From: a virus
Strand: one strand, 5' to 3'
DNA: 30,944 bases
Virus record (IMG/VR): IMGVR_UViG_3300027796_000032
Span: 1 to 30,944 of that record
Made by a program: the position numbers and the translations under genes
The notes under the pieces: model-generated
The model's database searches: none
Told to the model about the DNA's origin: nothing
Seen by the model: only the letters and a program-made list of their open reading frames with translations
Shown: positions 251-16,011 of the stretch, piece by piece
How the letters are laid out: the number at the start of each line of letters is the position of its first letter
How positions within the stretch are numbered: the stretch's first letter is position 1

Positions 251-1150
251 TTATGTGCCGTAAAGGTCATGATTGACCTGTGCGGCGTAATAATTATCCA
301 TGGTTGACGGCGCATTGAACAGAGTGGCAAGTAAATATTTTTTAATATTGCGGATATAACCTGTATTGCTTTTCATAGCGTCAAAAATATACTCAATATG
401 CGTACTGTTGATCTTGAGCAGCCTTGACCGCACAACGTCGGCAGGATAGTCGTCTCCGGCGATACGGACGGTTTTTCTGGCGGTACAGACCGTATCAAGC
501 ATCAGTTCCGCAATTTCATCCAGACGTTCTTTGCTTTCACGCTCACACAAGACCTCATAGCCGATATTCTCTAAAATGACAGACCTGTAGTGTTCTCTCA
601 TCACAATCCCATCCGATCCTTCCCTCTCCGCAGGATTGGATGGGATAGGATTTGATAGATTAGTACTTGATAGATTAGTATTTAATTTATTATATATTTT
701 ATTATTATATATATTTAATTGCGTTGGATTCTCCAACATAGGCTTCTCCAATATTGGTTTTTCCAACATAGGTTTTTCCAACATAGGTTCCGCCTGCATA
801 GGCTTTTCCTGTATAGGCTGTTTCTCTGTCGCTTCATCCGGCTCGGGTGTATTATGCACAGGCTTTTCATAAATCACATATTCTGTATCCGTCAGCTGGC
901 CCTTTGCGTTCCTGATTCTACTCCTAACAACATACCCTTCCGCCTCCAGCTCCTGCAGCGCCTTCCGGATAGCGTCCACGCCTTCAAGGCTAATACACGC
1001 CAGCCCGTTCATTGTATAATTCCAGTTCTCCGGCAGGGAAAGCATAAGGGACATCAGCCCCTTCGCCCTAAGAGACAAACGTATATTTTTCAAGTGATGA
1101 TTCGACATCACCGTATAATCCGCCACTTTTTCTACTCTGAATACCGCCAT
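251..1150 (-). CDS. DUF6017-type HTH / replication-initiator-like protein
   Basis: The 299-residue protein has an N-terminal winged-helix part (about residues 1-100, opening MAVFRVEK, then TVMSNHHLKN and GLMSLMLSLPENW). A Pro/Glu-rich pentapeptide repeat region follows (about 110-145), then an Asn/Ser-rich linker and a C-terminal conserved part (about 200-299). I recognise this layout from DUF6017 proteins of clostridial integrative and conjugative elements, where they are annotated as replication initiator or HTH proteins. The ATG at 1150 has GGGAG 8 nt upstream and is preferred over longer in-frame starts up to 1204. The gene follows the recombinase operon in the same direction but does not belong to a usual phage set, so it probably marks DNA next to the inserted phage. 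The exact function is inferred. Confidence 0.75.
   Translation of the reverse strand: MAVFRVEKVADYTVMSNHHLKNIRLSLRAKGLMSLMLSLPENWNYTMNGLACISLEGVDAIRKALQELEAEGYVVRSRIRNAKGQLTDTEYVIYEKPVHNTPEPDEATEKQPIQEKPMQAEPMLEKPMLEKPILEKPMLENPTQLNIYNNKIYNKLNTNLSSTNLSNPIPSNPAEREGSDGIVMREHYRSVILENIGYEVLCERESKERLDEIAELMLDTVCTARKTVRIAGDDYPADVVRSRLLKINSTHIEYIFDAMKSNTGYIRNIKKYLLATLFNAPSTMDNYYAAQVNHDLYGT
730..819 (-). repeat. Six tandem 15-bp repeats inside the DUF6017 gene
   Basis: Six contiguous 15-bp units (starting at 730, 745, 760, 775, 790 and 805) with the core CCAACATAGG encode five-residue units of the type KPMLE. Because the unit is a multiple of three, gain or loss of copies would keep the frame. The repeats lie in the linker between the HTH part and the C-terminal domain. 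Confidence 0.85.
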
Positions 1151-1190
1151 GTTCACCGCTCCCATCCATATATTTTTATAAATAGAAAAT

Positions 1191-1214
1191 GGGAGATACC
1201 GCATGATATCTCCC
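1191..1214 (-). terminator. Hairpin after the recombinase operon
   Basis: GGGAGATA (1191-1198) and TATCTCCC (1207-1214) form a perfect 8-bp stem with an 8-nt loop, 21 nt past the recombinase stop. On the minus strand it is followed by ATTTTCTATTT, a weak U tract. It is a plausible terminator for the recombinases and may lie near the phage/host junction. Confidence 0.5.
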
Positions 1215-1234: not shown

Positions 1235-2830
1235 TTAAAACTGCCGGTCTATTCTCGTTCCGTCACGGAAAGCAAAGGTGAATGTATTTTTGTCCTTCAC
1301 AATCACCGTTTCCACAATGCCGTTAAATAAATCAATATCAAATTCAGGAATGATTTTACCCGACTTTTTCATCTGCCGGATGAAATCCTGTCGGTATACC
1401 AGCCGTGTATCCCACAGTAGCTTTTCGTCCTTCAGCCTCTGAATTTCGGTTTCAAGGCGGTTATGCTCTTTGGCAAGCGTGGCATAATCCCTATCGTATT
1501 TTTTCTGATTCATAACGCTGTGGGCGTTGGTTTCAATCAGCTTTTTTATTTTTTGTTTCATTACATCAAACTGTTCTTCCGTTTTTGCCAGTGCCGCCTC
1601 AATTTCATCAGATTTTGTACCACCTGCAAGGGACTGCTCCAACACGGAAATGAAGTTCCCCTTATTCTCCACCATGCCGTTGTAAACCTCAACGAATGCC
1701 TGTTTAACGGCTTCTTCATTGACATACGGCAAGCTACAGGATTTTTTTCCCTTCTTCCTATATTTCCCGTTGCACTGCCAGATCACCTTGCGGTACTTGC
1801 TGGTGGAATGCCAGACTTTTGGACCGTAAATGCCTCCACACTCTCCGCAGATAATTTTACCTGACAGCTCCCTACTGCCGTTGGAAACGCCCCCACTCAT
1901 CTCCCTGCGCTTGAATTCGCCCTGTGCCATCTGAAATATATCTTTTGAGATAATTGCTGGATGGGAGTTTTCTACGAAATACTGCGCTACCGTGCCGTTA
2001 TTGACCGCTTTTTTCTTGGTTAAAAAATCAACCGTATACGATTTCTGCAGGAGCGCGGCTCCAAAATATTTTTCATTTTGGAGGATACTAGTAACGGTAT
2101 TGGCATGCCAGTTTTCCGCACCGCACGGTGTTTCGATGCCCTCCCGCGTCAGCGTAGCGGCAATGCCTTTCAAGCTCTGCCCCTCCAGAAAGCACTTATA
2201 TATCCTGCGCACCGTTTCCGCTTCCTGCGGCACAATCTCCGGTGTGCCGTCCTTCCCTTTCTTATACCCCAGAAAATGCTCATAAGGTATAATCAGCTTG
2301 CCATCGGCAAACCGCTTCCGGATACCCCAAGTAACGTTTTCTGAAATATTACGGCTTTCATCCTGCGCCAATGACGATAATATAGTCAGCAGAACCTCCC
2401 CTTTACTGTCCAGCGTCCGGATATTTTCCTTCTCGAACAGCACTTCAATACCGCATTCTTTCAGCTTCCGCACAGTTTCCAACGTATCTACCGTGTTCCT
2501 AGCAAAGCGAGAAACACTTTTAACCAGTATTAAATCAATCCTGCCGCCGATTGCGTCCTCAACCATGCGGTTGAACCCTTCCCTTCCTTTGGTGGAAGTC
2601 CCTGTTCTGTCCTGATCGGCATAAACATTCACATACTCCCATTGTGGGTTATTTTGAATATGATTTGTATAATAGTCCACCTGCGCCTCATATGAATTGG
2701 CCTGTTCCTCCGTATCGGTAGAAACTCTGGCATACGCCGCGACCCGTATTTTCCTAAGTTTTGGGGCGGATGTGACCTGGGTTATGAATTGTTCTCTTGC
2801 CGGAATAAATGTGACTTTTCTTTCTGACAT
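1235..2830 (-). CDS. Large serine recombinase with coiled coil (second of pair)
   Basis: A 531-residue large serine recombinase that would cut and rejoin attachment sites through a Ser-DNA link. The catalytic domain opens with AAYARVS (Ser37) and includes KSVSRFARN. The recombinase domain follows (about 170-290), then a zinc ribbon CGECG...C...C (about 335-375), a long charged coiled coil (about 410-480) and a C-terminal beta-type tail. The ATG at 2830 is chosen because GGAGGAG lies 8 nt upstream; an in-frame ATG at 2851 lacks such a site. The gene starts 49 bp inside the preceding recombinase gene, so the two are translationally linked. In large serine integrases the coiled coil governs integration versus excision, and only this member of the pair has it. 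Confidence 0.93.
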   Translation of the reverse strand: MSERKVTFIPAREQFITQVTSAPKLRKIRVAAYARVSTDTEEQANSYEAQVDYYTNHIQNNPQWEYVNVYADQDRTGTSTKGREGFNRMVEDAIGGRIDLILVKSVSRFARNTVDTLETVRKLKECGIEVLFEKENIRTLDSKGEVLLTILSSLAQDESRNISENVTWGIRKRFADGKLIIPYEHFLGYKKGKDGTPEIVPQEAETVRRIYKCFLEGQSLKGIAATLTREGIETPCGAENWHANTVTSILQNEKYFGAALLQKSYTVDFLTKKKAVNNGTVAQYFVENSHPAIISKDIFQMAQGEFKRREMSGGVSNGSRELSGKIICGECGGIYGPKVWHSTSKYRKVIWQCNGKYRKKGKKSCSLPYVNEEAVKQAFVEVYNGMVENKGNFISVLEQSLAGGTKSDEIEAALAKTEEQFDVMKQKIKKLIETNAHSVMNQKKYDRDYATLAKEHNRLETEIQRLKDEKLLWDTRLVYRQDFIRQMKKSGKIIPEFDIDLFNGIVETVIVKDKNTFTFAFRDGTRIDRQF

Positions 2831-4104
2831 GCTTTCATCTCCTCCGTCCATTTCCGTGATTTATCCTGCCATGATTTTTCTGTCCTTTTTCCATCCTTAC
2901 AAACAAAAACCACCTTGTTCCACTCAGAAACCTCTATCCTTTGTATTTTCTGTTTGAAAACCTTCTCGTCAAATTCATTGAGTCCCAAAACTTCCGCGGT
3001 GATTTCCATCAGTGTATCCTCGGGTATCTGCTTGGTATGGCAAGCAGCCTTTCCTTTTTCCAGAAAAGTGGCACAATTCCAGAAAACGCGTCTGTGCTTG
3101 TTACTGCAGTTGCTGACCTTGCGGGTATAATTTTTGCCGCAGTTCCGACAAAGGATTATGCCGGTAAAGGGATATTTGAATTTGGGCTGAACGCTCGCGT
3201 TCTCACGAGCGCGTTTTTTCAATTCCGCCTGCACGGCGAAGAAGGTTTCCTTTAAAATAATGGGTTGGTGGTTATCCTCCACAAAATACTGATCCCGCTC
3301 GCCCCTGTTTATGACCCTTCTTTTTGTAATATGGTCTGTGCGGAAGCTTTTCTGCAATAACAAATCCCCACAGTATTTTTCATTAATTATCAGGTGTTTC
3401 AGCCCTTTTACGTTCCACAGCCCGCCTTTGGGGGACGGAATCTCCTTTTCATTCAGCATATCGCAGATACGTTTCAATCCCAATCCTGACAAATAGGAGG
3501 AAAAAATCAAACGGACGACTTCGGCTTCCTCCTGTATAATCCGAAAGCCTCCGTCATCCGTTCGCCTGTACCCGTAGAGCCGTTTCAGGCTCATGGGCAA
3601 AATCCCCTGTTCAAATTGTTTTTTCAGCCTCCATTTACAATCTTCTGAAACGTTGTAGCTCTGCTCCTGCGCGAAGGCGGACAGCACCGTCAGCATCAGC
3701 TCCCCGTTTTCTGACAGGCTGTTTATGTTCTCCTCCTCAAAAAACACCGCCACACCCAACTCTTTCAGTTCCCGTACGCAGGTGAGGGTTGTAACCGTAT
3801 TTCGGGAAAATCTTGAAATTGCCTTGGTAATAATCATGTCGACATTGCCGTTTCGGCATTCCGCAAGCATTTTCTGAAACTCCGGTCGATCCTGCTTTGT
3901 GCCGGTGGTCGGCTCGTCGGCAAACACGCCGGCAAATTCCCATAATGGGTTTTTCTGAATCAACTCGCTGTAATAACTGACCTGCGCCGACAGGGAATGC
4001 AATGCCGCGTCTTTTTCTGCCGACACCCTTGCATAGGCACATACCCTCTTCCTGCGGCAGGCTTCGGCGGCAAAGGGTTCAATTTTGGTTATTATTTTCT
4101 GCAT
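2782..4104 (-). CDS. Large serine recombinase lacking the coiled coil (first of pair)
   Basis: A 440-residue serine recombinase. The catalytic Ser28 lies in CAYARVS and further resolvase-domain residues are in KAISRFSRN. A recombinase domain (about 160-280) and a zinc ribbon CRNCG...C...C (about 325-365) follow. Compared with its neighbour it lacks about 90 residues of coiled coil: soon after the zinc ribbon it goes straight into a short segment (IQRIEVSEWNKVVFVCKDGK) that matches the other protein's extreme C-terminal part. GGGAGG precedes the ATG at good spacing. It follows an unknown small gene by 4 bp and overlaps the next recombinase. It may act with its partner as a heteromeric integrase, or be a truncated helper; which one is not shown by sequence alone. 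Confidence 0.92.
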   Translation of the reverse strand: MQKIITKIEPFAAEACRRKRVCAYARVSAEKDAALHSLSAQVSYYSELIQKNPLWEFAGVFADEPTTGTKQDRPEFQKMLAECRNGNVDMIITKAISRFSRNTVTTLTCVRELKELGVAVFFEEENINSLSENGELMLTVLSAFAQEQSYNVSEDCKWRLKKQFEQGILPMSLKRLYGYRRTDDGGFRIIQEEAEVVRLIFSSYLSGLGLKRICDMLNEKEIPSPKGGLWNVKGLKHLIINEKYCGDLLLQKSFRTDHITKRRVINRGERDQYFVEDNHQPIILKETFFAVQAELKKRARENASVQPKFKYPFTGIILCRNCGKNYTRKVSNCSNKHRRVFWNCATFLEKGKAACHTKQIPEDTLMEITAEVLGLNEFDEKVFKQKIQRIEVSEWNKVVFVCKDGKRTEKSWQDKSRKWTEEMKACQKEKSHLFRQENNS

Positions 4105-5104: not shown

Positions 5105-5746
5105 CTATATGTCATGTTTTTTCATATAGCTTAACGCTTTTCTTGCCAGCCAGTACAGCCGCCCGTCCGGGTTCTGCTCCATATCCTTTAAAAACCCGTC
5201 CACATCCGTAACTATCCCCCTGTTTCCGTATTCCCAGGCTATATCATTGGGATCTATCAATTCATCCGTTTTTCTGATCTGCATTTTAAAATCCTCCCAT
5301 AAATTCTGTGTCAGCATAATCGCCGGACACCACTTGCCGCTGGCGTCATTATGGGTGACAACCTGATCAGGCGAAAGGCTGGTTATTTTCATCAGATATC
5401 GTACCAGTTCAATGGCATTTTGGCGGGCAGCGGTGTAATTTCCATCACTGTTGACGCATATCTCCAGTCCGATGGCATTATTGTTCGTGATATCGCTGTG
5501 TCCTTTGTTATCCCCAACATGCCATGCCTTTGCGTCGAGCGGCAGCAGCTGAAGAATTTTAGTATCATCCACCACAAAATGCGCGCTGGCATTGGCATAT
5601 TCATTTGTGTTCCAATAGGTATAATGCGAATCAGCATCTGCACCGGCGGCGGTGTTTGCGGTTTCGTGAACAACAATATATTTTGGCGTGATTACCACGC
5701 CTTTAGAGTAATTTCTGGATATAAACCTCTGTTCAATTTGAATCAT
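5105..5746 (-). CDS. Endolysin: N-acetylmuramoyl-L-alanine amidase (Amidase_2)
   Basis: A 213-residue zinc amidase that cuts the bond between muramic acid and the stem peptide of peptidoglycan at lysis. The Amidase_2/PGRP fold covers about residues 15-155, with zinc ligands visible as His27 (IVVHETAN), His132 (VTHNDASG) and Cys140 (GKWCP). The short C-terminal part (about 165-213) is not a cell-wall-binding domain I recognise. No signal peptide is present, so export depends on the holin encoded just upstream, whose end overlaps this start by 14 bp. AGGAGG precedes the ATG. Confidence 0.95.
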   Translation of the reverse strand: MIQIEQRFISRNYSKGVVITPKYIVVHETANTAAGADADSHYTYWNTNEYANASAHFVVDDTKILQLLPLDAKAWHVGDNKGHSDITNNNAIGLEICVNSDGNYTAARQNAIELVRYLMKITSLSPDQVVTHNDASGKWCPAIMLTQNLWEDFKMQIRKTDELIDPNDIAWEYGNRGIVTDVDGFLKDMEQNPDGRLYWLARKALSYMKKHDI

Positions 5747-11979: not shown

Positions 11980-12918
11980 TTACAACCTCTTCAAATCAAG
12001 CTTGACCTTATAGATACCGTTCACGATACTGTGCTGCGTTCCTTCAATCACAAAATCCGCACCATCAATGGTGATAACCGCGCCTGCCCTGGTATAACTA
12101 TCCTCCGATTCGATAATTTCAAATGAAAACTGTTCCTTTATTTTTGATAATTCCAGCAGTTTCGCCTGCGTTGCCGCACCCGGATCTTCCTTTTCCGGAT
12201 CAATTGACACAACCTCCTGCAGAAGCCCGTACCTGCCGATGAGCGCGTCATCTTTCGCGGAAGCCAGAACCGAAAATCCATCCTCATTGCCGGATATAGC
12301 CTTAACAGAGTTTTTCGTATCCTCAATTGATATGGAATGTGATACGTTTCCCCGCGCGCCCGGCGAGTAAATCAACCTTGTATTCGGAAAAATCCGGAAT
12401 TCGGGATAGGCATAGATATCTCCGATCCTGTATATACGGATCCCCTTCGGCGTCATGTCAAAGTTGTACCAGCCGCCGCACTGGGTCAGCACATCGGATA
12501 TGATTTCACTGATTGTTTTATCAAGGTATATTTTCGTAATCTCCACTATAAGCTCGGATATGCTGTCGATCCCTATGTCAAAATCGGCGCACACTGTCTC
12601 AATCACTTTTTTTGCCGGCATCCTGTTAAACTGATACGTTTCTTTCGACTTATTGAGGTACCATCCGAAGTCCACAGCCGTGTATTTATTTGAATTTTTC
12701 GCCCCGTCATCCATGGTGATGACAATCCCACGAAATACCTCTTCATTGGTATACAGCCGTATAATGCTTCCCAAGTCCGGCTGATAGATGTTCATGTACT
12801 TTGCGTCTGTTTTAGCTACCTCAAAAGACATTGTTGTCGCAAGCTCTGAAATGGTGTTCTGCCACGACAGCCCTCCGGCGGCGTTTGTTATATCCATATC
12901 ATCAGCGTAAAGCTTCAT
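11980..12918 (-). CDS. XkdQ/YqbQ-like baseplate hub protein
   Basis: A 312-residue protein opening MKLYADDMDITNAAGGLSWQ, with SELATTMSFEVAK, then YTAVDFGWYLNKSKETYQFN and a C-terminal repeat-like beta segment (GAVITIDGADFVIEGTQHSI). This is the XkdQ/YqbQ family, related in fold to the gp27/gpD hubs that seat the tail spike at the centre of the baseplate. It begins within 4 bp of the end of the XkdP-like gene. Length is near that of PBSX XkdQ. No catalytic site is visible despite the 'hydrolase' label sometimes used for the family. Confidence 0.88.
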   Translation of the reverse strand: MKLYADDMDITNAAGGLSWQNTISELATTMSFEVAKTDAKYMNIYQPDLGSIIRLYTNEEVFRGIVITMDDGAKNSNKYTAVDFGWYLNKSKETYQFNRMPAKKVIETVCADFDIGIDSISELIVEITKIYLDKTISEIISDVLTQCGGWYNFDMTPKGIRIYRIGDIYAYPEFRIFPNTRLIYSPGARGNVSHSISIEDTKNSVKAISGNEDGFSVLASAKDDALIGRYGLLQEVVSIDPEKEDPGAATQAKLLELSKIKEQFSFEIIESEDSYTRAGAVITIDGADFVIEGTQHSIVNGIYKVKLDLKRL

Positions 12919-13310
12919 ATCAGCTTCACCTCCCCCAGACTGAGCATATAGTATAAATCCCCGTCCTGACGGATGGTATATTCAAAGTTTTCAACAGACA
13001 CTGCCATATTGATGGGCGTTTCTGTTATAACCAGCCGCATCGGCAGCTTCTGCAATATCCATGTATCAATAATAAAAACATATTCAAATCCTTTATACGT
13101 CCTGTCCCGAAGGAAAGTGTAATCCCTTACAGGAAAGAAAGAATTGATAACAATCCCTTTCAACCCCGGAGTGCCGATCAGCCGCAGTTCTCCCTGAGAG
13201 ACTGTTTCAAATACTTCGTTTTTCTGCGGTTTTGTGATTGTAAATTCTTTCGGCACAACCGGAAGCTTTAAAACCTGCTCCCTATTATTAGTGCAAAGAT
13301 ATATCTCCAT
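12915..13310 (-). CDS. XkdP-like baseplate protein without LysM domain
   Basis: A 131-residue protein with KLPVVPKEFTITKPQKNEVFETV, GLKGIVINSFFPVRDYTF and a C-terminal beta segment YMLSLGEVKL. The pattern matches the N-terminal half of PBSX XkdP and related proteins that link the tube to the hub. Many such proteins end in a LysM peptidoglycan-binding domain of about 50 residues, and this one stops before it. AGAGGTG stands 9 nt before the ATG at 13310; a GTG at 13322 overlaps that site and is less likely. The gene lies after the toxin-like locus and before the XkdQ-like gene. Confidence 0.8.
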   Translation of the reverse strand: MEIYLCTNNREQVLKLPVVPKEFTITKPQKNEVFETVSQGELRLIGTPGLKGIVINSFFPVRDYTFLRDRTYKGFEYVFIIDTWILQKLPMRLVITETPINMAVSVENFEYTIRQDGDLYYMLSLGEVKLI

Positions 13311-13353
13311 ATAAAAAAACACCTCTCGTTCCGGTAAAAATGATACAAAATCA

Positions 13354-13382
13354 TTGACATTACCAAAATTAAGGTGTATAAT
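13354..13382 (+). promoter_or_regulatory. Consensus promoter for the antisense (antitoxin-like) RNA
   Basis: A perfect TTGACA (13354-13359), a 17-nt spacer and a perfect TATAAT (13377-13382) read on the plus strand, against all neighbouring phage genes. The expected start is near 13389. It is the best promoter match in the window and has no ORF behind it. Confidence 0.88.
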
Positions 13383-13388
13383 AAATAT

Positions 13389-13482
13389 ATAAAAGGCAAG
13401 ACCTCAAACGGTTATGCCAAAATATGTGTTATAAAATAACCGCTACATTTTGACGGATGGGGCGGTTATTTTACTTTTATAG
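13389..13482 (+). ncRNA. Candidate antitoxin RNA of a type I toxin-antitoxin locus
   Basis: RNA of about 90 nt expected from the strong plus-strand promoter. It should end at the 12-bp hairpin (13432-13443 with 13462-13473) followed by the U-rich TTTACTTTTAT. Its 3' part is antisense to the end of the 24-residue peptide gene and to that mRNA's own terminator region, an arrangement like RatA/TxpA of Bacillus subtilis. The ends are estimates from promoter and hairpin positions. Confidence 0.6.
13432..13473. terminator. Bidirectional terminator shared by toxin-like and antisense RNAs
   Basis: TAAAATAACCGC and GCGGTTATTTTA form a perfect 12-bp inverted repeat with an 18-nt loop. A/T tracts flank it on both sides, so it can end transcripts arriving from either direction. 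The toxin-like stop codon lies inside the right arm (13466-13468). Confidence 0.78.
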
Positions 13483-13540
13483 TAAATGCTATCAGCAGAA
13501 TCAATATCAGAAAAAAAATTCTCAATATGTATTTTCTCAT
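13466..13540 (-). CDS. Type I toxin-like hydrophobic peptide, 24 residues
   Basis: The 24-residue peptide begins MRKYILR, has a hydrophobic core of about 14 residues (IFFLILILLIAF), and ends TIKVK, with basic residues on both sides. This is the make-up of membrane-acting type I toxins such as Ibs, BsrE/BsrG and TxpA, though I recognise no specific family. A very strong ribosome site (AAGGGGGTGG) lies 7 nt upstream and is partly folded into a GAAA-capped hairpin. It has its own consensus promoter and faces an oppositely directed RNA gene that overlaps its 3' end. It stands between the tape measure and the XkdP-like gene, where no structural gene is needed. Holin or leader peptide are alternatives. 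Confidence 0.65.
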   Translation of the reverse strand: MRKYILRIFFLILILLIAFTIKVK

Positions 13541-13548
13541 AGCAACCA

Positions 13549-13563
13549 CCCCCTTTCGGGAAG
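13549..13563 (-). promoter_or_regulatory. Hairpin masking the toxin-like ribosome site
   Basis: In the mRNA, UUCCC-GAAA-GGGGG can fold into a GNRA-capped stem of three G-C and two G-U pairs that takes up the GGGGG of the Shine-Dalgarno. Masked ribosome sites in full-length mRNAs are common in type I toxins. The stem is short, so the effect is uncertain. Confidence 0.45.
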
Positions 13564-13632
13564 CGGCATAACCGTCCGGTTTTTAAGCCGTTAAGAGATC
13601 TCACCCTTCGCCGGAATTTATCCGACTTCATT

Positions 13633-13661
13633 ATTATACACCATCTTTTAAGTCATTGCAA
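13633..13661 (-). promoter_or_regulatory. Consensus promoter of the toxin-like gene
   Basis: TTGCAA (13656-13661), a 17-nt spacer and a perfect TATAAT (13633-13638) on the minus strand, 18 nt past the tape measure stop. The start should be near 13626, giving an 86-nt leader before the peptide. The 12 bases GGTGTATAATAA around the -10 are identical in the facing antisense promoter. Confidence 0.82.
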
Positions 13662-13680
13662 GATTTTTGTCATATTTAAT

Positions 13681-16011
13681 TTATAAATTCTGCATCACAA
13701 GCTTCAGTTTGGGCACAACCTCATCCACAATTTCTTCCGATGATTTCCCGTCAGCATAGATATTAATGATGATGGTATTATTGTTTCCTGCCTTACCAAG
13801 CGGCGTCACTTGCGCACCTCTGGGCAGATCCAGAAATTCAGGCCCTCTTTCTCCGACAAGCACACGCCCGGGACTACGCAGGATACCGCCTTCCGCCAAC
13901 TTCGGCACTTCAATTAATGCAAGCTTGGTTATATTAACCCCCGGTATCTTATTGATAACATCAATCGACCAGTTGATCGCTTTGATAAACCCGTTGATGG
14001 TGTTTTCCGCAAAGGAAATGACGCTGTTTACAACAAACTTGAACGCGCCGGCGATTCCGTTGCCGATTGCAGTGCCGATAGTGGTGAAGATGCCGGTAAT
14101 GGTATCCCATACCCCGCCGAAAAAGTTAGCCACGCCCGAGAAGGCGGATACAATCATGTTCCACGCGCCGGCAAAAATCCCGCCGAACCATGCGCCCACT
14201 GCTGAGAAAATGAAGGTTATCCCATTCCATACATTCTGAAATATCCCCACAACCGTCGTTACAATAGGCATAAAAAATGCGATCACTGGCTGTATCACCG
14301 TATTATTAAACCAACCTGCCAGAACGCCGAACAGCACGGTGATAATCTCCCACACCTTCATAAAGATTGATGCGATTCCGGTAACGATCGGCCCAAATAC
14401 CCGCCACACCGGCTGTATTACCGAATTATTGAACCACGCTGCCGCGCTGACAAACACACCCGCGATGGCATTCCAGCAGAACACCGCGCCGGATTTGATG
14501 TTCTCCCATGCCCAAATGAAAAAGGCGGTGACCTTCGACCAATTCTTCCAAAGTAGGATACCCACCGCTACTAGCGCGCCGATGGCAAGTACCACAAGAA
14601 AAACAGGCGACATTACAAACGCCAGCGCTGCTCCGAAAGCCGTGGTGACTGCCGTTGCCGTGCCGGTAATGGCGATATGTGCAAGTTCCGCAATAGACAG
14701 CCCGGCCAGCGCCGCCGCCTTTTTCCCTGATACCACTGCGGCGTAGGTTACCAGCGCGTTGTTGATTCCGACAGCGATGCTGTACGCGCCCACCGCCGCC
14801 GCAATGCCTCCCACAATCGGAGCGATCACTCCCCAGTTGCTGCTGATAAAGTTATATACGTCAGCCGCTCCGCTGATCACGCCGGACAATACATCAACAA
14901 CCGCCGGAAGCCCCACATCCTTCAGCCATGTAATTACCGGCTGTGCGCTTTCAAACGCCATAACAAGCTTATCCTTAATATCCAACAAAACGGTTTTGAC
15001 CGAATCGAACGCAGGGGCGTTATTTTCTACAGCGCCCTTTATATTCTCAAATGCCGATACACCAAAGCTCCATATATTTTGAAATACCGAAACCAGCGGC
15101 GGCAGAAGAGAATCTTTAATCCACATCAGCGGAGGTTTTACCGCGTTCACAGCGTTTGTTACCAACGTCTGCGCTGCGGGGATTTTTGCCGCCATAAAAT
15201 TCACGACGTTTGTGATTACCGGCAGAACGGCGTATCCCACAATATCCTTGACCGATCCCCACGCGTTTTTAAGCTGTACAATCCTGCCCTCCGGGGTCTG
15301 CGCCATCTTCTGCGCCAGCCCGCCGAAGTTCGCGCCCAGCACCTCCACCAATGCTGCGGCTTTCTGTGACTCTGTTCCTGTTTTTAAGATACTTTCCTGC
15401 GTTGCTGTAAATGTAACGCCCGCTTTGGTCAGCGCACCGGTCTGCCCCATCATGACCTTGCCCATCAGGTTGCCGCTTTGAATCATCTGATCCTGCGATA
15501 CATTCACGCCGTACTGTGCGACGGCAAGATCCTGAAACGCCGGCAGAATGGTTTTGATGGTATCGGCATGCAGCTGGAAGGTAGCCAGCTGTGACGCTCC
15601 GGCGACAGTCGCGTCACCCTCAATAGTGGTCACCTGTTCCAGCGCGTCGCCATAGCTGATAATATCGTCAATCTGTGTTTGCGTGGTGCCGGATACATTC
15701 ATCATTAATGTTCCCAGCCTGGTGTTAGCACGCTCCAGCTCCATCACACCCGTGACACAATCAGTCAAAAAATCCTTTGCCTGTGAAAACCCCAGATACG
15801 CCGCGGCGGCGCCCATTACCTTTTTTGCCATGCCTCCCAACACATCGCCGGTGGCGCTGCCCTGGCCGCCCATCTTTTTCAGACTGCCTGTGGCGTTTGT
15901 GACCGCGCTTTTGAGCTGGTTTGTTCCGGTGATGGCGGATTTGATATTAGTAAAAAAATTCCCATTGTTTAAAGTTAATGTCGCGCCAATACTTTTACCA
16001 CTTTTTCTCAA
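13681..16011 (-). CDS. Tail tape measure protein
   Basis: A 776-residue tape measure protein that sets tail length and is packed inside the tube during assembly. It has an N-terminal helical part, a long hydrophobic middle (about 395-490) as expected for the membrane-insertion segment, and tandem Trp-rich units of about 45 residues (WFNNxVIQPV ... PIVTxIxxIFxxVW, about 520-640). The C-terminus (LAEGGILRSPGRVLVGERGPEFLDLPRGAQVTPL) is typical for the family. The TTG at 16011 has GAGGTGAT just upstream. It follows the frameshifting chaperone gene, the standard order. No lytic transglycosylase or peptidase motif is seen. Confidence 0.95.
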   Translation of the reverse strand: MRKSGKSIGATLTLNNGNFFTNIKSAITGTNQLKSAVTNATGSLKKMGGQGSATGDVLGGMAKKVMGAAAAYLGFSQAKDFLTDCVTGVMELERANTRLGTLMMNVSGTTQTQIDDIISYGDALEQVTTIEGDATVAGASQLATFQLHADTIKTILPAFQDLAVAQYGVNVSQDQMIQSGNLMGKVMMGQTGALTKAGVTFTATQESILKTGTESQKAAALVEVLGANFGGLAQKMAQTPEGRIVQLKNAWGSVKDIVGYAVLPVITNVVNFMAAKIPAAQTLVTNAVNAVKPPLMWIKDSLLPPLVSVFQNIWSFGVSAFENIKGAVENNAPAFDSVKTVLLDIKDKLVMAFESAQPVITWLKDVGLPAVVDVLSGVISGAADVYNFISSNWGVIAPIVGGIAAAVGAYSIAVGINNALVTYAAVVSGKKAAALAGLSIAELAHIAITGTATAVTTAFGAALAFVMSPVFLVVLAIGALVAVGILLWKNWSKVTAFFIWAWENIKSGAVFCWNAIAGVFVSAAAWFNNSVIQPVWRVFGPIVTGIASIFMKVWEIITVLFGVLAGWFNNTVIQPVIAFFMPIVTTVVGIFQNVWNGITFIFSAVGAWFGGIFAGAWNMIVSAFSGVANFFGGVWDTITGIFTTIGTAIGNGIAGAFKFVVNSVISFAENTINGFIKAINWSIDVINKIPGVNITKLALIEVPKLAEGGILRSPGRVLVGERGPEFLDLPRGAQVTPLGKAGNNNTIIINIYADGKSSEEIVDEVVPKLKLVMQNL

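Follow-up and report, generated by a model that had tools for sequence, protein, structure and literature searches.

A compact module at positions 13354-13661 of a viral DNA of 30,944 bases (an IMG/VR virus record, the whole of which is called the window here) appears to be a type I toxin–antitoxin system, to which we give a probability of about 0.82; it would belong to a family absent from the libraries searched and be carried as a moron between the tape-measure and XkdP-like genes. The general feature of type I systems, a gene for a small hydrophobic peptide with an antisense RNA on the opposite strand, is found in the sequence and in its conservation among relatives, and the type I architecture proposed in a preliminary description of this DNA is backed by conservation on both strands. 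Peptides of 22–24 amino acids (aa) are easily missed by gene callers, and the module would bring to light a large type I family of uncultured gut Clostridia (Clostridia, Ruminococcus, Oscillospiraceae, and Monoglobus), for which no type I system was found described in open-licence PMC papers.

Organization of the module

The two facing promoters reported earlier are present and are the best two of seven promoter-like sites in 12800-14300, where shuffled sequences give 3.8 (standard deviation 1.8). The antisense promoter, TTGACA-17-TATAAT (13354..13382, plus strand), matches the consensus at 12/12 positions, and the toxin promoter, TTGCAA-17-TATAAT (13633..13661, minus strand), at 10/12. The 24-residue hydrophobic peptide with basic residues at both ends, likewise noticed earlier, is confirmed by translation and homologues as MRKYILRIFFLILILLIAFTIKVK, a peptide of type A with a grand average of hydropathy of 1.65 and a net charge of +5, encoded by an open reading frame (ORF) at 13466..13540 (minus strand, ATG at 13540) behind a strong Shine–Dalgarno sequence, GGGGGTGG (13546..13553, minus strand), which is predicted to be locally paired with a probability of 0.05 of being unpaired.

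The predicted full-length toxin mRNA would span 13390..13626 on the minus strand and fold back from its 5' to its 3' end (minimum free energy -90.4, z -8.05). It would begin with a hairpin predicted by folding (GUCGGA..UCCGGC, 13610..13626, minus strand) that is present in many, not all, relatives, followed by the toxin leader (13565..13605, minus strand), whose arms, GGTGAGATC (13605-13597) and CGGTTATGCC (13574-13565), repeat the sequence of the antisense 5' hairpin and are able to base-pair with the mRNA's own 3' end. The predicted antisense (antitoxin) RNA of ~92 nt, with putative ends at 13389..13480 on the plus strand, is represented by a covariance model, R1, built from 28 sequences, and it carries the 5' hairpin GGCAAGACC-UCAAA-CGGUUAUGCC (13395..13418, plus strand), a 24-mer found unchanged in 50/73 full-length loci.

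After the toxin stop codon, a hairpin at 13432..13473 can form on both strands with 12 exact pairs (13432-13443/13462-13473), its 17-nt arms being 88% complementary; it is a probable terminator of the antisense RNA and possibly a weak one of the toxin mRNA. Its antisense T tract is the complement of the toxin lysine codons, and it was not listed by the terminator scan of the region because its loop probably exceeds the limit of that scan. The bidirectional terminator formerly placed at the overlap of the two transcripts needs revision: the 12-bp hairpin exists, and for the antisense RNA a good T tract comes after it in relatives, while the toxin mRNA, to judge from conservation, probably reads on to a conserved T tract beyond 13395, and the overlap of the two RNAs would then be ~90 nt.

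Two repeats are absent from the preliminary description, an exact 11-bp inverted repeat (13408-13418/13565-13575) and a 47-bp inverted repeat of the two promoter regions (70%), and the module is therefore roughly mirror-symmetric; its direct repeats are two-copy and imperfect. In most relatives, both RNAs start with GGYAAGAYY...CGGUUAUGCC, while the toxin leader of the window has GGTGAGATC. The two RNAs of this mirror layout have their starting hairpin in common, and the hairpin of each is located at, or close to, the end of the other, which offers a simple scheme for the origin of the module, the swapping of toxins, and decay.

Peptide types and purifying selection

Several peptide types occur within one RNA frame. 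Type A, the type of the window, has the form M-x-K-Y-I-x-R-I-(hydrophobic)-KVR/K, type B is MDNEYIISFMIILLLLVISIKK, and type C is MEYVYIMIYIITLIVLIITIKK, with further types in addition. The ratio of nonsynonymous to synonymous substitution rates (dN/dS; Nei–Gojobori count with Jukes–Cantor correction) is 0.34 for type A (25 ORFs, codons 2-18, which precede the antisense overlap; 0.41 over codons 2-23), 0.15 for type B (25 ORFs, codons 2-16; 0.26 over codons 2-21), and 0.07 for type C (11 ORFs, codons 2-21). The stem of the antisense terminator holds the last codons of the toxin, so the C-terminal KVR/KVK is tied to the RNA and the ratio is therefore given without it. The peptides are under purifying selection, and the range of 0.07-0.41 across types A, B, and C bears out the conservation against synonymous drift whose absence had been named as refuting the reading. 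As a frame control for type A, an early stop was found in frame +1 of 25/25 ORFs and in frame +2 of only 6/25, so that little can be concluded from an open frame by itself.

A short mobile or repetitive element, like a miniature inverted-repeat transposable element with symmetric inverted-repeat ends and an incidental ORF, would account for the mirror-image ends, the many dispersed and tandem copies, and the existence of truncated ones. Such an element is nevertheless very improbable, as dN/dS lies well below 1, the ribosome site and start are retained, and peptide types are swapped while the RNA frame persists. In one locus, L104 (~5295-5600, plus strand; loci bear L numbers), the module is complete except that its toxin ORF is interrupted by a short insertion bounded by inverted repeats (AGAGCTTATCCGTAA...TTACGGATAAGCTCT).

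In 10 copies of a further type, the ORF behind a strong ribosome site reads MKSKH..YG.. or similar, and within it, in another frame, lies the start of the toxin (MAKKLLIAVFVIVLVMIILSIKAQ or alike). This overlapping-ORF subtype was seen in L170/L232, L178, L210/L233, L234, L235, L244, L261, L276, and L280, and it stands at the tail site in L205 (as L170), L210, L234, and L235. Separately, peptides of 42-44 aa, basic and then hydrophobic, lie behind the same AAAGGGGGTGGTT ribosome site in L057 (344-364, plus strand), L058 (250-270, minus strand), and L059 (2873-2893, minus strand), each followed by a hairpin (by eye); these are possibly other type I toxins.

Promoters and RNA structure across the family

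The fetched loci contain 115 antisense hairpins, and 73 loci are full-length, with a recognised peptide, a leader, and a 3' arm; L084, L097, L102, L103, and L199 were left out of this set as truncated or aberrant. Promoters were scored at a cut-off of at least 9/12 in 60 loci with enough flank, including the window, 13 of the 73 being left out for short flanks or leaders. A match was found on the antisense side in 60/60 loci (mean 11.9 of 12) and on the toxin side in 58/60 (mean 10.5), compared with 29/207 control windows (mean 7.5), the antisense promoter being nearer to the consensus than the toxin promoter.

The predicted antisense RNA folds with z = -5.4; a slightly shorter piece of the toxin mRNA, with fewer shuffles, gives z -5.7 as against the -8.05 of the full length. 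The antisense 5' hairpin is near-invariant, and the antisense terminator is conserved with compensatory changes at three stem positions. Provided that its 3' end is at the conserved T tract past GGTCTTGCC, the toxin mRNA is predicted to fold end to end: with one locus taken per distinct peptide and a leader of at least 40 nt, 53/53 modules did so with 14-27 such pairs and z values from -4.8 to -10.8 (mean -7.1), for a putative mRNA 3' end and loci chosen for both arms. The end-to-end arms pair in 1230/1254 cells of 66/73 loci with double changes at three positions, the remaining seven loci being unrecognised and the first arm being found by likeness to a motif (at most three substitutions), which favours pairing. 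With arms that vary so little, in loci chosen for having them, these figures make no strong covariation argument. The local partners that close the Shine–Dalgarno sequence are, by eye, GCCACC opposite GGUGGU and AUCAUCUCC opposite GGAGGUGAU. RNAalifold gave a weak structure for 23 aligned leaders and a two-arm hairpin with zero compensating changes for 53.

Occurrence at the tail site and in bacterial genomes

The search with the XkdP-like protein gave 53 viral loci and matches in 36/391 genomes of a clostridial class sample. When R1 was run over 64 sources (the window and loci chosen from the XkdP-like matches), 12 matches were obtained, which make nine distinct modules once overlapping or identical loci are merged: those of the window, L002, L003, L011/L074, L078/L079, L205, L235, L210, and L234, the last two being the weakest at 36-37 bits. 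The earlier suggestion to look for the peptide and antisense RNA in related prophages is thereby answered with nine modules at the same site, the junction of the tape-measure and XkdP-like genes, with ~1.5 kb of other DNA between module and tail gene in L003. In the viral collection, the 24-mer 3' arm of the window was found in four contigs in addition to the window, each of which belongs to this same-site group. No R1 match was found in L004-L010 and L012-L024, where the upstream gene ends a few bases before the next ribosome site (by eye). Searches with Shine–Dalgarno patterns returned mostly unrelated genes and led to L062, L063, L071, and L074.

The module directly precedes the XkdP-like gene on the same strand, as would a leader peptide or attenuator controlling this next tail gene. 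That role is scarcely credible, however, for a module with its own promoter and hairpins, which is missing from many relatives of the site and whose copies in bacterial genomes adjoin unrelated genes.

In the genome collection, a two-part pattern (GGTTATGCC, then GGTGGTTNNTATG) gave 54 stretches. Half of them (27), from records of Clostridia, Clostridiales, Ruminococcus, Oscillospiraceae, and Monoglobus, all encode a hydrophobic peptide of 20-24 aa of the window's kind, though the peptide of L104 has the insertion in it, that of L118 is shortened, and those of L102 and L132 are of another type; no such peptide was found in the other 27, from other taxa. R1 matched 20/20 seed genomes with up to 9 copies each, at least 63/391 genomes of the class sample, 47/95 genomes from a single clostridial order (at most 12 copies in any one), and 4/9 genomes of another order, stricter filters being applied in the class sample, in the order of 95 genomes, and in the leader search. 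Among 26 non-clostridial genomes, there were no R1 matches at E <= 1e-3, the best having 0.005. Some copies are scattered and others stand in tandem, as do three in the genome G004 at ~350-bp steps.

Most copies were found in bacterial genome contigs. Around 14 loci, 20 neighbouring proteins were scanned, of which 16 had Pfam matches; they include ATP synthase subunit D, MurJ, TypA/BipA, phosphofructokinase, an SDF symporter, a pseudouridine synthase, an ABC transporter, and Fic. Hexapeptide transferase alone occurred more than once, at L103 and L129, as two different sorts, and L097 adjoins a recombinase fragment, the only one of the 14 to do so. Since most copies lie in bacterial genomes and the 14 checked stand beside unrelated genes, prophage maintenance, the role first suggested, is unsupported as the general role of the family. 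The DNA of the locus gave short matches only to named phages (E 0.4 or more among the matches listed), and tblastn with the peptides found no match in named phages (types A and B) or plasmids (type A).

Orphan antisense units and decayed copies

The loss of the two halves is asymmetric. Over the 95 genomes of one order, counting strong matches only and a leader within 330 bp, an antisense unit without a toxin leader was found in 24/102 cases and a toxin leader without an antisense unit in 2/48, one of these two at a contig end and the other, L272, without a start codon. Of the 24 leaderless antisense units, 21 were inspected, and 16 of them are without a toxin ORF (the ORFs of L293 and L299 are not toxin-like); a toxin-like ORF is present in L276, L280, L292, and L300 (at a contig edge), L295 is ambiguous, and L290, L294, and L296 were not refound by pattern. 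In the 20 seed genomes, 36/38 strong leaders have an antisense partner (hand count), and of the two that do not, one is L132/L273, whose peptide ORF is intact. The toxin is lost and the antitoxin rarely so, as addiction predicts. The edge of an orphan antisense unit typically lies just upstream of the T tract of the antisense terminator.

Orphan antisense units without a toxin ORF were recorded in L139, L144, L166, L181, L194, L243, L252, and L283-L289; in L139, L194, L243, and L252, the orphan adjoins a complete module.

Proposed mode of action and its alternatives

In the proposed scheme, the weaker promoter would yield an mRNA of ~235 nt for the 24-aa membrane peptide, and the facing promoter, presumably also the stronger one in the cell, would yield an antisense RNA of ~90 nt complementary to the 3' part of that mRNA. 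The mRNA would be silent twice over: its Shine–Dalgarno sequence would be paired locally, and its 3' end would be bound by the 5' leader, in which the antisense 5' hairpin is copied. That 3' end would also be the target of the antisense RNA; RNase III would cut the duplex and the mRNA would decay. After loss of the module or a stop of transcription, the antisense RNA would be exhausted first; the peptide would then be synthesized and harm the membrane, a toxicity that would lead to post-segregational killing.

Several points weigh against this scheme. Small membrane peptides with antisense RNAs can serve non-toxic roles. The Fisher test of the orphan counts (p 0.0025) ignores the relatedness of the genomes and the differing sensitivity of the two models; L132/L273 keeps an intact toxin ORF without the antisense half; and L097, L102, and L103 are without the 5' arm of the leader and the toxin promoter, the sequence upstream of the second arm being unrelated, a condition that may reflect decay or an assembly artefact. 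As for the RNAs, the loci used for pairing and foldback were picked for having both arms, so that the result is partly built in, none of the 8 pairs of the local leader hairpin shows a compensating change, and a toxin mRNA ending at the post-stop hairpin would have no 5'–3' foldback. The Shine–Dalgarno sequence has a mean unpaired probability of 0.07 in the 3'-shortened RNA as against 0.11 in the full RNA; as it is closed with or without the 3' end, the foldback itself does not hide it, and this function of the foldback was rejected.

The small membrane peptide could instead serve a purpose other than toxicity, such as the tuning of a membrane process or of prophage induction, with the antisense RNA regulating its level only. 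Purifying selection would look the same for such a peptide, and a fixed phage site in nine copies would suit it, but we regard it as unlikely: the 14 scanned loci share no neighbour gene except the different hexapeptide transferases at two, many copies carry several peptide types in one RNA frame, antisense-only units outnumber toxin-only units, and it is the antisense promoter that comes nearer to the consensus.

If the module is a toxin–antitoxin system, its antitoxins may also act across loci, because the 24-mer of the antisense 5' hairpin is identical in 50/73 loci of several peptide types. We advance only tentatively that orphan antisense units, in which promoter, hairpin, and terminator survive the loss of the toxin, are anti-addiction RNAs that disarm the phage-borne module, and that in each genome a shared antitoxin pool guards up to a dozen copies; the orphan copies make RNA anti-addiction testable.

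Comparison with known type I systems

Searches of Pfam (13 entries including repeats), NCBIfam (six peptides), PHROGs (three peptides), and Rfam gave no family at threshold, and the earlier statement that the peptide belongs to no known family holds as far as these libraries go. Some peptides had Pfam matches with E 0.065 to 2.7, all below the cut-off. At a relaxed threshold over the locus, Rfam models such as ohsC and BsrG came up with scores well short of their gathering scores and were taken as chance. A suspected relationship of the MNFYELLMYLITLIVLIIITKK peptides to TxpA or Hol_Tox was unsupported by the family scans.

The most similar layout is that of par of pAD1 (Fst, RNA I/RNA II), with convergent promoters, a shared hairpin terminator, a stem-loop over the Shine–Dalgarno sequence, and a toxin RNA whose 5' end is sequestered by pairing within the molecule (PMC7472228); convergent promoters and a shared terminator are read here from the sequence. 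Fst, as described, has 33 aa with a PXXXG motif in its transmembrane part, whereas the window peptide has 24 aa and neither P nor G. The par locus has the DNA direct repeats DRa/DRb, read in opposite directions and complementary between its RNAs, while the conserved repeat of the module is inverted, so that both RNAs carry the same hairpin. The overlapping-ORF subtype resembles the coupling of mok and hok, mok being an upstream ORF translationally coupled to hok. The predicted 5'–3' foldback of the full-length mRNA would resemble hok/sok and aapA/IsoA, in which the translationally inert full-length mRNA is described with 5'–3' long-distance pairing (PMC6733600). The module differs from these in having no Pfam or NCBIfam match, in the predicted overlap at the 3' end, and in a Shine–Dalgarno sequence closed locally regardless of the 3' end.

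The predicted 3' overlap of transcripts would be shared with txpA/RatA and bsrG. The toxins of txpA/RatA, bsrG/SR4, and bsrE/SR5 are longer and of other sequence, the type I toxins of B. subtilis being given as 28-60 aa (PMC6563280). None of the TxpA/BsrG and BsrE/BsrH models rose above the Pfam or NCBIfam cut-off, and the Rfam model of BsrG scored 15.4 bits against a gathering score of 55. The comparison with txpA/ratA in the preliminary description was accurate for the location on the Skin prophage; adjacency to PBSX-type tail genes was not seen in the passages that give this location. The modules of Clostridioides difficile (CD0977.1-RCd11 and others) are alike in being convergent, in lying in prophages and elsewhere, and in a hydrophobic peptide with a basic end, and an effect of one on the stability of prophage phiCD630-1 has been reported (PMC7699646). 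Their toxins, by the published description, have 34-59 aa with a hydrophobic N-terminus and a lysine-rich C-terminus (PMC6563280), and this description sets them apart from the present peptide of 24 aa with basic residues at both ends.

The proposed mode of working is like that of Fst, hok, AapA, and BsrG, while for every named family the motif, length, repeat type, or model either speaks against the module or does not establish that it belongs there. We take the module to represent a separate family, of type I in its presumed working and marked by mirror-symmetric RNAs, toxins that can be exchanged, and orphan antitoxins. It was not found in print among open-licence PMC papers, searched mostly by titles and listings. 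One study puts forward 3161 structured RNAs as candidates predicted from human microbiomes, of which 301 overlap another on the opposite strand (PMC8040213), and this set could hold the antisense RNA unnamed.

Setting in the phage window

The module lies in a contractile-tail gene cluster on the minus strand, in which the Pfam scan of the window proteins identified a tail sheath, a DUF2001 tail tube, and an XkdN-like chaperone, and PHROGs a tape measure. The gene after the tape measure, which we presume from gene order to be XkdP-like, has best PHROGs matches without known function or named endolysin. It measures 135 aa only (12915-13322, minus strand); several close relatives are equally short (open frames of 133-148 aa), and others have 200-311 aa.

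The gap between the tape-measure stop (13681) and the XkdP-like start (13322) is 358 bases long with a GC content of 34.4%, compared with 40.9% and 51.5% in the two flanking genes. Morons are genes with their own promoter and terminator that are inserted between phage genes, deviate in composition, and are absent in relatives. The phage copy of the module looks like a moron: it has its own promoter, a position between phage genes, deviating GC, absence from relatives, and a putative terminator. The toxin gene is on the same strand as the tail genes, so that late transcription could run through it.

Elsewhere in the window, two recombinase-like genes with a slight overlap are found at 1235-2851 and 2782-4104 (minus strand), the first matching a PHROG integrase and the second resembling the first in sequence. 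An ORF at 251-1204 (minus strand) contains a run of repeated EKPMLEKPILEKPM-like units in the middle of the gene.
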